Source: Clostridia bacterium (GTDB lineage: Bacteria > Bacillota > Clostridia > TANB77 > CAG-508). From it: a DNA stretch of 64,000 nucleotides. Numbering within the stretch: position 1 is the stretch's first letter; every line of letters begins with the position of its first letter. The DNA lies in assembly GCA_017404545.1 (NCBI GenBank), contig JAFRCC010000018.1:496001-560000 (forward strand), written 5' to 3'. Position numbers and translations under genes: made by a program. Of this stretch, positions 26,022-39,111 are shown one piece after another. The notes under the pieces are model-generated. The model saw only the letters and a list, made by a program, of their open reading frames with translations. It was not told the origin of the DNA and searched no databases.

Positions 26022-26050
26022 TTGACCATTTTATGTTAACATGTTATAAT
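26022..26050 (+). promoter_or_regulatory. Consensus sigma-A promoter of the 26127 cassette
   Basis: TTGACC (26022-26027), 17 bases, then TATAAT (26045-26050). It points away from the zinc operon toward the short gene at 26127. Confidence 0.8.
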
Positions 26051-26126: not shown

Positions 26127-26393
26127 ATGAAAACTTATGCTCAGCCGAAAATCCACGACGACGACCACCTGCAGTACGTATTTAACAGCAATAGTAATGT
26201 ACACTATTGCTTTCGGGGTGTGAGTCACCAACGCTGCCTCTTCGTAGCTACAGACATGGCAGCAACAAAGATGGACGTCAACCAGAAAGAAGGCTATGGA
26301 AAGTGGCCTGTAATCGACCTGGCAATTGTACCTCACCCTGAAAAACCCGGTCTCTTCATCATCGAAGACCGCTCTGAATGGACTAAAGGATAA
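26127..26393 (+). CDS. Unknown 88-residue protein in a composition-shifted cassette
   Basis: I do not recognise this protein. It is soluble, with no signal or membrane segment, and reads as a small mixed alpha/beta domain (VIDLAIVPHPEKPGLFIIED near the C-terminus) with several His and two Cys. The gene has a near-consensus promoter, a CGGAGGT ribosome binding site and its own strong terminator, so expression is well supported. Its base composition differs from the neighbours: in two 60-base lines I counted 26 and 31 G/C, against about 18 in a typical neighbouring line. Codons such as GAC, CAC, CTG and ATC are preferred. This suggests transfer from another genome. The antisense frame 26109-26447 has none of these signals. 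Confidence 0.75.
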   Translation: MKTYAQPKIHDDDHLQYVFNSNSNVHYCFRGVSHQRCLFVATDMAATKMDVNQKEGYGKWPVIDLAIVPHPEKPGLFIIEDRSEWTKG

Positions 26394-34217: not shown

Positions 34218-34247
34218 AAACCACGGAGGAACACACCCCCGCGGTTT
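34218..34247 (-). terminator. Terminator of the 34262-35266 cassette
   Basis: AAACCACGG (34218-34226) can pair with CCGCGGTTT (34239-34247) with one mismatch, and a T run follows on the minus strand. An A/T tail on the other side may let it serve the plus-strand gene ending at 34185 too. Confidence 0.75.
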
Positions 34248-34261
34248 CTTTTAGATTATGA

Positions 34262-34612
34262 TTACTTATCACTTTCGGATTCGAATTTGATAGACAGAAC
34301 AACAGCCCATCTCTTTTCCGAAATGTTCTTAAGCTCATGTGTATTGCCCTTTTTGCAAATTTCGTACTGAAGTCTCTGATTCTTTAAATCCCAAAAAATA
34401 TAGATTTCAGAATCATTCGTGTGCCGATGCTTTTTTACCCCTGCTTTAGGCGAAAGATACAGAATTGAAACAGAGCCTTGTCCTTCCTTTGAAAAAAGAA
34501 CACAACTATAAATGCTTCTGCTCTTATTTGCCAGTTTAGATTTATCAAGCATTTCAAGTTTTCCAGCCCATGCTTTAACAGACCATGGCGTGTTGTAACC
34601 TTTAACAACCAT
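34262..34612 (-). CDS. Small cupin-like protein in a composition-shifted cassette
   Basis: The 116 residues contain GVKKHRHTNDSEIYIF, a good match to the first cupin motif (G-x-H-x-H-x-E), and GNTHELKN, a match to the second (G-x2-H-x3-N). A single small cupin with both histidine sets is likely a metal-binding beta-barrel, perhaps a sugar isomerase-like or sensor domain; the substrate is unknown. It has an AAGGAGG site and lies 15 bases after the gene at 34628, so the two are co-transcribed. Codon use is richer in G and C than in the neighbours. Confidence 0.65.
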   Translation of the reverse strand: MVVKGYNTPWSVKAWAGKLEMLDKSKLANKSRSIYSCVLFSKEGQGSVSILYLSPKAGVKKHRHTNDSEIYIFWDLKNQRLQYEICKKGNTHELKNISEKRWAVVLSIKFESESDK

Positions 34613-34627
34613 ATGATTCTTGCCTCC

Positions 34628-35266
34628 TTATGCTGTTACGTTATGTTTCTCGATATCTTTGAGTCCTGCATAATAAGTTCTGTAAGCTTCTTCCGGAGTG
34701 CAAATCTGGTGCTTCATACATCTGATAACATCCACCAACCAGGAATACTTTTTCCAGAAAAGTTCGTCAAAAATGAACTTCTCTTCAGTATAACCATCAG
34801 TCTTCAGACTCATAAACGCAACCAAAGTATACACCAAATAACACTGTACCGCATTGACATCATACTCCATAATTGTACAAAAGTCCTCAAAAGAACCTTC
34901 TCCGTCAATAAACAATTTGAAGTCTAAGTCAATTCCAAGTGCCTTTTCGCAGCCTTTGTTCAGCTTTGCACAGTTACTCTCGTTCTTCCAAAGGTTTTTT
35001 CTACCGATGAAAGCCCTCATGGAATCCTCGTCATCACTACTTCTGAGAACAGACATAACAAAATAGCTAATCATCCAAAATGTTTCCATCGAAATTTCAG
35101 GCTGACTCTTGGAAAATTCCTCGTACGTGCCGCTGAGAATACTGTCAAGGCTCTCTAAGTGCTTGCATGTCCGCATAAAAGCGTCGCTTTCCCAGTCTTT
35201 TTCCGGGGTTCTTGCTTTGAGCCATTCAAGCTCAGTTGCTTTGCAAATGTTGCCGTTCATATTCAT
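34628..35266 (-). CDS. Unknown 212-residue helical protein in a composition-shifted cassette
   Basis: I do not recognise a family. The protein is soluble, acidic and largely helical, with recurring aromatic and Cys residues and no signal peptide. I chose the ATG at 35266 because it has an AGAGGAGGT site; a longer frame to 35308 begins within the untranslated leader. One line of this region has 27 of 60 G/C by my count, against about 18 in nearby core genes, so it was probably acquired. Promoter and terminator bracket this gene and the cupin gene as one unit. Whether the two act as partners is open. Confidence 0.7.
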   Translation of the reverse strand: MNMNGNICKATELEWLKARTPEKDWESDAFMRTCKHLESLDSILSGTYEEFSKSQPEISMETFWMISYFVMSVLRSSDDEDSMRAFIGRKNLWKNESNCAKLNKGCEKALGIDLDFKLFIDGEGSFEDFCTIMEYDVNAVQCYLVYTLVAFMSLKTDGYTEEKFIFDELFWKKYSWLVDVIRCMKHQICTPEEAYRTYYAGLKDIEKHNVTA

Positions 35267-35315
35267 ACATGAACCTCCTCTAAAAGTTATATTAGTTATT
35301 AAAAACAACAGATAG

Positions 35316-35344
35316 ATTCTATCACAATAATCTTGTTATGTCAA
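35316..35344 (-). promoter_or_regulatory. Consensus promoter of the 34262-35266 cassette
   Basis: On the minus strand TTGACA (35339-35344) and TAGAAT (35316-35321) are spaced by 17 bases. It lies 50 bases upstream of the start at 35266. Confidence 0.8.
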
Positions 35345-35380
35345 ATAAATCTAAATATTTCTGTGATTAACTTGTGATAA

Positions 35381-35525
35381 TGTCACCCCATAGGTGTACA
35401 AAATTATTTTATAGAAATGTCACCCCTATGATAAAATATTTACATTATGGAGAGTTATATAAGGGGTGACATTTCTATAAGTTATTTTTATGCTTTTGGG
35501 GTGACATTTCTATAAACTATTGACA
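35381..35525. mobile_element. Miniature insertion element with four TATAGAAATGTCACCCC repeats (IS21-like ends)
   Basis: The 145-base stretch starts TGTCACCCC and ends TTGACA, so both ends read TGTCA inward. Inside are inverted copies of TATAGAAATGTCACCCC at 35410-35426 and 35463-35479 plus another at 35498-35514. Multiple subterminal repeats with TG/CA ends are the hallmark of IS21-family ends; the assignment is inference. No transposase frame is present, so this would be a deletion derivative or MITE. TGATAA occurs just left (35375-35380) and just right (35530-35535), a possible target duplication. Confidence 0.65.
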
Positions 35526-35592
35526 TAGCTGATAAAGAAGATTGTTTATGGAAATAATTTATGATAAAATCATACATGATAGGAGATTAATT

Positions 35593-38363: not shown

Positions 38364-38870
38364 TTATACCAAACCTTTTAATAAATGAACTATTACTTTT
38401 TGATTTTCTATATCAATATTTAGTAAAACATCTTTAATTCCAGGTATAAGTATTTGCTTTCCAAGGTCATCTTTTACAACATATATATCATTGCTTCCAG
38501 TATTGTATATATCATCAACCTTGCCCAGGTAGACATTTTCATCCGTATATACATCTGAGCCTATAATGTCTGCTATAAAATATACTCCCTCTTCTAGGTC
38601 TCTTGCTTGACTTCTATGAATTTTTATATAGCAACCCTTATAACGTTCTGCAGTATTCATATCATCAATCCTTTTTAATTTTAGAAGTACCATATCTTTA
38701 TGATATTTTACCTCTTCAATTTCCATTTCAATTGTTTCTTTGTTTTTTACAACCAAAATTTTACCTAATGTTTCAAATTGCTCTACATCATCTGTGAAAG
38801 GCTTTACTTTAACATGACCTTTAACACCATGAGTATTAACAATTTGTCCAATTTCAAAATACTCTTGCAT
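38364..38870 (-). CDS. rimM: 16S rRNA processing protein RimM
   Basis: The N-terminal barrel has FEIGQIVNTHGVKGHVKVKP. The C-terminal PRC-like barrel has LEEGVYFIADIIGSDVYTD and ILIPGIKDVLLNIDIENQK. The protein binds S19 and helps fold the 30S head. It sits between khpA and trmD in the standard order. The ATG has an AGAGG site. No oddities. Confidence 0.96.
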   Translation of the reverse strand: MQEYFEIGQIVNTHGVKGHVKVKPFTDDVEQFETLGKILVVKNKETIEMEIEEVKYHKDMVLLKLKRIDDMNTAERYKGCYIKIHRSQARDLEEGVYFIADIIGSDVYTDENVYLGKVDDIYNTGSNDIYVVKDDLGKQILIPGIKDVLLNIDIENQKVIVHLLKGLV

Positions 38871-38880
38871 GCTTACCTCT

Positions 38881-39111
38881 TTAATCTACAAATTCAATGT
38901 TTACCTTTTTACCTTCTTTAGCAGATACAGATTTCATAACAGTTCTTATTGATCTTGCTACCCTACCTTGTTTACCGATAACTTTTCCCATATCATCTTT
39001 TGAAACTTTAACCTTGTATGTTATAGATTTTTCTTCTTCTATTTCTTCAATTGATACAGAATTTTTATCGTCAACTAGGCTGGTAATTATCAATTCTAAT
39101 ATTTCTTTCAT
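38881..39111 (-). CDS. khpA: KH-domain RNA-binding protein KhpA
   Basis: The 76 residues form a single type-II KH domain with the GxxG loop in MGKVIGKQGRVARSIRTV. KhpA (YlqC) partners with KhpB in Gram-positive bacteria and affects RNA fate and cell elongation. It lies 10 bases upstream of rimM and 25 downstream of rpsP, its usual place. The ATG has a GAAAGGGG site. Confidence 0.95.
   Translation of the reverse strand: MKEILELIITSLVDDKNSVSIEEIEEEKSITYKVKVSKDDMGKVIGKQGRVARSIRTVMKSVSAKEGKKVNIEFVD

Follow-up and report, generated by a model that had tools for sequence, protein, structure and literature searches.

An AT-rich clostridial chromosome carries, between resident genes, two small minus-strand genes of shifted base composition, which raises the questions of what the two proteins are, whether they form a pair and how their composition arose. 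We analysed the locus within a 64,000-nt stretch (the window) on contig C3 of G000, a genome of 2.18 Mb in 31 contigs; the nearest named relatives recovered were 'Clostridia bacterium' MAGs from sheep and water-deer gut. In the reading that we favour, the unit consists of an accessory metallo-cupin restricted to one order, acquired by exchange with a gene pool richer in G+C, and of a degenerate operon partner; we give this reading about an even chance of being right.

Anatomy of the unit and the adjoining element

The unit and the element beside it comprise the following features:

35344-35316, minus strand: sigma-70-type promoter, TTGACA-17-TAGAAT, 11/12 consensus matches, TG ahead of the -10 (extended -10)
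35274-35279, minus strand: ribosome binding site of ORF1, AGGAGG
35266-34628, minus strand: ORF1, 212-aa helical protein, a divergent, shortened relative of DUF6829 (PF20717)
34623-34629, minus strand: ribosome binding site of the cupin, AAGGAGG, overlapping the ORF1 stop codon
34612-34262, minus strand: ORF2, a 116-aa single-domain cupin (conservation, model and Foldseek)
34250-34215, minus strand: intrinsic terminator, 15-pair stem followed by a T run, fold about -23 kcal/mol
about 35362-35527, no strand assigned: miniature insertion element (MITE) outside the operon, made of the joined ends of a resident insertion sequence (IS), 99 bp at 100% and 66 bp at 95%

Ribosome binding sites and neighbouring genes, here and at the other loci, were read or named from sequence. 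The consensus promoter, the strong ribosome binding sites and the terminator described in the initial annotation were all recovered, and with one promoter, a gap of 15 nt between the ORFs and one terminator, bracketing both ORFs on the minus strand, the helical protein and the cupin form a two-gene unit as it had stated. ORF1 is an intact 212-codon frame with a strong ribosome binding site and no frameshift. To the left of the unit lies an mtgA-like transglycosylase gene, and to its right lie a DUF445-like gene and rplS.

The unit had also been described as directly adjoining a miniature insertion element. Such an element does abut the promoter, but it arose by fusion of the two ends of an IS resident in the genome and is present on one flank only. 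It is an internally deleted copy of a 1.4-kb IS at C24:86.1-87.6 kb, which encodes a 428-aa rve-type transposase with HTH and weak integrase-core matches; the IS-end repeat was seen only in this full copy and next to the cassette promoter. Its position against the promoter and its near identity to the resident IS ends would fit a recent import of the unit on the element. However, a composite transposon has element ends on both sides of its cargo, and here they occupy one side only; moreover, in G015, another genome of the genus with an operon at the same site, the operon promoter lies close to the DUF445 gene within a short promoter region and no MITE is found there. Based on the single flank and the absence of the element beside the G015 operon, we conclude that the MITE did not bring the unit, and import by this route, already largely refuted, is hardly credible.

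The cupin and its variable companions

The 116-aa protein carries both cupin motifs, HxH(x)3-4E (motif 1) and G(x)2H(x)3N (motif 2). Its predicted ligand set is H62, H64, E69 and H92, and C86, N96 and K109 are likewise invariant; in an alignment of 25 members, P, H, H, E, C, H, N and K were invariant in 25/25 and the motif-2 Gly was nearly so. The best AlphaFold model (pLDDT 80.8, pTM 0.73) is the one good model of five, the other four scoring 44-51. Foldseek matched it to TM1459/TM1287 and other cupins with probability 1.0, an E value of 4e-5 and TM scores of 0.55-0.62, giving a single double-stranded beta-barrel, and TM1287 was also the nearest solved structure by profile (E 1.7e-7). The best Pfam match, Cupin_7, stayed below its cut-off (E 0.034, 14.4 bits versus 27), as did those of most family members; Cupin_2 was matched at E<=0.01 by 9 of the 25 relatives.

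Judging from the conserved ligands, the family is probably metal-binding, and the role best supported for the 116-aa protein is that of a small metallo-cupin with a low-molecular-weight ligand. Most likely it would form one small beta-barrel that holds a divalent metal through H62/H64/E69/H92, with a small acid or sugar-type compound as its ligand, and it would work in catalysis or, with lower probability, in sensing; the sugar-sensing role proposed at the outset may apply. Because the companion genes vary, gene context lends no support to this functional step.

A cupin occupies the same place and orientation beside mtgA in 3/15 other genomes of the genus (G015, G012 and G003). Each of the three has its own promoter, readable upstream of the unit and similar to that of the cassette, and its own terminator; the proteins are 38-50% identical to the window cupin, and lengths at the site range from 116 to 122 aa. 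Since G015, G003, G012 and the window all keep the cupin while its companions differ, what stays constant at the mtgA site is the cupin. A profile built from these four proteins (A1) matched 30/390 genomes of the taxonomic family, once per genome and in 12/39 genera, and none of 298 other genomes of the phylum (299 scanned, the sole match being the window's own). With a broader 25-member profile (A9), matches were obtained in 41/257 genomes of the order, five of them from another family, f5. Neither gene of the unit is an ordinary core gene in relatives, in keeping with the initial annotation. Two genomes of the same genus, G001 and G004, have a cupin relative beside groES/groEL and pyrG instead, and several cupins of genus g9 adjoin a clp gene. 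In three different genera, closely similar cupin-bearing stretches (L064, L065, L072) adjoin a Mob/Pre-type relaxase-like gene, which suggests that some cupins ride on mobilisable elements.

ORF1 is homologous to a 411-aa G015 protein that holds the same locus and operon position (22% identity; E 1e-10 when the two were compared on their own by BLASTP, E 3.1e-6 in a whole-genome search). This protein matches DUF6829 with an E value of 1.4e-57, while ORF1 gives no PF20717 match in Pfam at E<=1. ORF1 has about half the length of the 411-aa protein and no C-terminal part, and alignments revealed that the NDLGK, DHD and HxxxDIAGAAGH stretches common to three full-length proteins are replaced or deleted in it. 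ORF1 accordingly looks like a cut-down copy of DUF6829 that, as its altered residues suggest, has probably lost any activity and is probably not an enzyme. For the full-length family, the NDLGK...DHD...HxxxD pattern and Foldseek, in which a PDE5/PDE6 chimera was the best match and PDE5A the third (E 0.46, model of pLDDT 60), hint at an HD-phosphohydrolase, a lead only.

A 705-aa protein of the kind found in G392 and G394 combines DUF6829 with a sub-threshold DUF1152 match (E 0.0047). A search for DUF6829 by Pfam accession in 299 genomes of the phylum gave no match, but nor did it in the control genomes, so this negative is no evidence of absence; our literature search found no paper on DUF6829 or DUF1152. 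In G394, a 67-aa SpoIIID-like protein (L078:1174-1377) lies beside the DUF6829-DUF1152 gene and a PHP-type protein. In G396, the DUF6829 gene is present in two parts about 10 kb apart (contig C12:3750-14928; L079, L083). A serine-recombinase-like gene lies at one edge, and the split looks like the result of an element's insertion.

The G015 operon consists of DUF6829, a nucleoside 2-deoxyribosyltransferase-like gene (PF15891) and the cupin, with gaps of 12-23 nt; the window operon has ORF1 and the cupin and no PF15891. In G003 and G012 the cupin stands at the mtgA locus and no ORF1 relative was found. Reading about 1.5 kb of flank, we found DUF6829 without a cupin in G392 and G394; in G396 and G341 it accompanies PF15891-like sequence, disrupted or decayed, and no cupin adjoins it. 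Pairing is not conserved. A DUF6829-family gene and a cupin share one operon at the same place in G015, so the two cannot be said never to co-occur, but G003 and G012 have the cupin alone. With one related species carrying DUF6829-PF15891-cupin and two carrying only the cupin, ORF1 and the cupin are not an obligate pair.

The initial annotation had considered a defence or toxin-antitoxin pair, and two small ORFs behind one promoter, accessory, compositionally foreign and beside mobile DNA, would suit an anti-phage or toxin-antitoxin function. However, the unit had no convincing match in PADLOC, NCBIfam, Pfam or PHROGs (weak CARF and Csm3 matches, E 0.005-0.02), no DNA-binding domain was recognised, and neither the conserved pairing nor the toxin or antitoxin family match of a type II system was found, the cupin occurring without ORF1 in two relatives and DUF6829 without the cupin elsewhere. 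The titles and abstract openings returned by a literature search on cupins and toxin-antitoxin systems described no cupin toxin-antitoxin pair. We therefore regard this function as very improbable. More can be said for a functional pair in which ORF1 has been reshaped from DUF6829 into a non-enzymatic regulatory or structural partner of the metallo-cupin, as the frame is intact and well equipped for translation, lies 15 nt from the cupin and has a co-operonic counterpart in G015. Nevertheless, we consider such a partnership doubtful, given the solitary cupins of G003 and G012 and the cupin-less DUF6829 loci of G392, G394, G396 and G341. We prefer to see ORF1 as a remnant of a larger operon of DUF6829, nucleoside 2-deoxyribosyltransferase-like gene and cupin that persists in a sister species, with the conserved polar motifs and the C-terminal half having been lost.

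Base composition: exchange or descent

The shifted base composition noted for the unit was borne out. GC3 is 0.47 in ORF1 and 0.34 in the cupin, compared with a host background of 0.194 +/- 0.050 (sd; 288 ORFs of >=150 aa from 400 kb of this one contig), in which 6/288 ORFs reach 0.34. In a leave-one-out comparison, the cassette codon model outperformed the genome model by 55.9 nats for ORF1 and 16.2 nats for the cupin, and 281/281 genome genes scored below zero, in a test that is partly circular as the cassette models were trained on genes chosen for high GC3.

About ten other genes with G+C-rich codon usage were present in the 464 kb examined as background, the 400 kb plus the window, all on contig C3 of the window genome (G000; L091-L110):

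38369-38980: G+C-rich small gene
101248-101745: G+C-rich small gene
105385-105807: G+C-rich small gene
112617-113243: G+C-rich small gene
128144-128920: G+C-rich small gene
138156-138695: G+C-rich small gene
204850-205107: G+C-rich small gene
231810-232139: G+C-rich small gene
240326-240529: G+C-rich small gene
305270-306121: G+C-rich small gene

They lie between AT-rich genes and commonly start from a promoter with an extended -10, carry a ribosome binding site of the AGGAGG type and end in a hairpin beyond the stop codon; one of them matched Lysine_decarbox/SLOG (PF03641, PF18306), one RelA_SpoT (PF04607) and one DUF4097. The codon test that groups these genes of similar style again used GC3-picked genes and is to that extent circular. 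A common origin had been proposed for our unit and the one at 26022. Codon usage, promoter and terminator are indeed alike, and the evidence for a common origin consists of this shared style and not of homology. The 88-aa gene of that unit (26127-26393) is related to genes of G015 (54%) and G004 (44%) in similar positions close to mtgA/dnaE, and neither the 269 other family genomes searched nor phages yielded one.

Across 33 loci, the cupin exceeded its neighbours in GC3 in every case (33/33; mean +0.195, Wilcoxon p 5e-7, indicative since the loci are related), and 95 small control ORFs showed an excess of +0.046, 24% of these ORFs exceeding 0.1. Core genes of G000, G015, G003 and G012 have diverged almost to saturation at silent sites, so that a cupin imported once and then inherited vertically should have approached host composition. 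Between species, the cupins share 38-58% amino-acid identity, a divergence far above that of their neighbours, and Nei-Gojobori dS failed or was saturated for cupin pairs. The DUF6829 genes of genus g39 have host-like GC3 (0.14-0.21) and the cupins of f5 come close to that of their hosts (0.14-0.27 for both groups together), which argues that the proteins themselves do not dictate the bias. Together with the bias retained by the other cupins, this favours replacement out of a pool with higher G+C.

The elevated G+C could instead be native, with vertical descent and a codon usage kept by selection or by a different mutational regime. The restricted distribution, the bias in all 33 loci and the loci fixed within a genus are in line with this explanation; in particular, constant site and orientation argue for descent and make exchange harder to explain. 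Nor was a donor found: tblastn searches of phages and plasmids gave no match for ORF1, the cupin or the 411-aa DUF6829 protein, scans of viral contigs with ORF1, three cupin alignments and DUF6829 gave none, and the phylum sample held none either. On the other hand, host-like composition in the g39 DUF6829 genes and f5 cupins and the AT-rich promoter region of the cassette (G+C 0.25) speak against it, and we judge native composition unlikely.

We thus return to exchange, in which the G+C-rich codons would most likely stem from repeated transfer of one- to three-gene units from a G+C-richer pool into a recurrent site, from mtgA to the DUF445 gene and rplS, in this genus of ruminant-gut Clostridia, the 116-122-aa cupin with its own promoter being the part that stays. 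The recurrence of the cupin in the same position and orientation beside mtgA in G015, G012 and G003 supports the reading as a whole, and the three loci with a relaxase-like gene support its exchange component. As a wider and rather unlikely generalisation, AT-rich gut Clostridia of this order might harbour a genome-wide class of self-contained small cassettes, each with a promoter, one or a few G+C-rich genes and a terminator, in fixed positions between genes, the small metallo-cupins being one widespread type. Such cassettes would diverge much faster than the genes around them and would not ameliorate, implying continuous allele replacement from a G+C-richer pool by an undescribed route. Foreign composition is usually taken as a sign of recent import; here a family confined, in the samples searched, to one bacterial order keeps it at the same sites across species with near-saturated silent sites. 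Either replacement is still going on through a vector that has escaped notice, or amelioration has an exception here.

Relation to known systems

Phage morons and accessory-gene hotspots on chromosomes are one- or two-gene units of foreign composition that stand, with their own promoter and terminator, between resident genes, as does the unit described here. In contrast to morons, it lies on a bacterial chromosome between core genes and shows no phage context. The only phage link found is the PF15891 gene, which forms the middle gene of the G015 operon and is missing from the window operon; its family also occurs in large phages, Bacillus phage G among them. The G015 protein (L037:7776-8282) shares 27-54% identity with proteins encoded by large phages and by viral contigs (IMG/VR L146-L153), and in Bacillus phage G the PF15891 match lies within gp334, a gene annotated as a NUDIX hydrolase.

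ORF1 resembles DUF6829 in aligning to the 411-aa G015 member with the same operon position, and differs in its halved length, the disappearance of the conserved polar stretches and its invisibility to the Pfam model. The cupin shares a predicted small beta-barrel and the H-x-H-x4-E and G-x2-H-x3-N motifs with Cupin_2-type single-domain metallo-cupins (PF07883; TM1287, TM1459; WbuC, TIGR04366). It differs from them in scoring under every Pfam cut-off, in an invariant Cys three residues ahead of the motif-2 Gly and an invariant Lys in the last strand, and in being encoded by G+C-rich genes found so far in one bacterial order; it would represent a new subfamily of small metalloproteins from bacteria of the ruminant gut.
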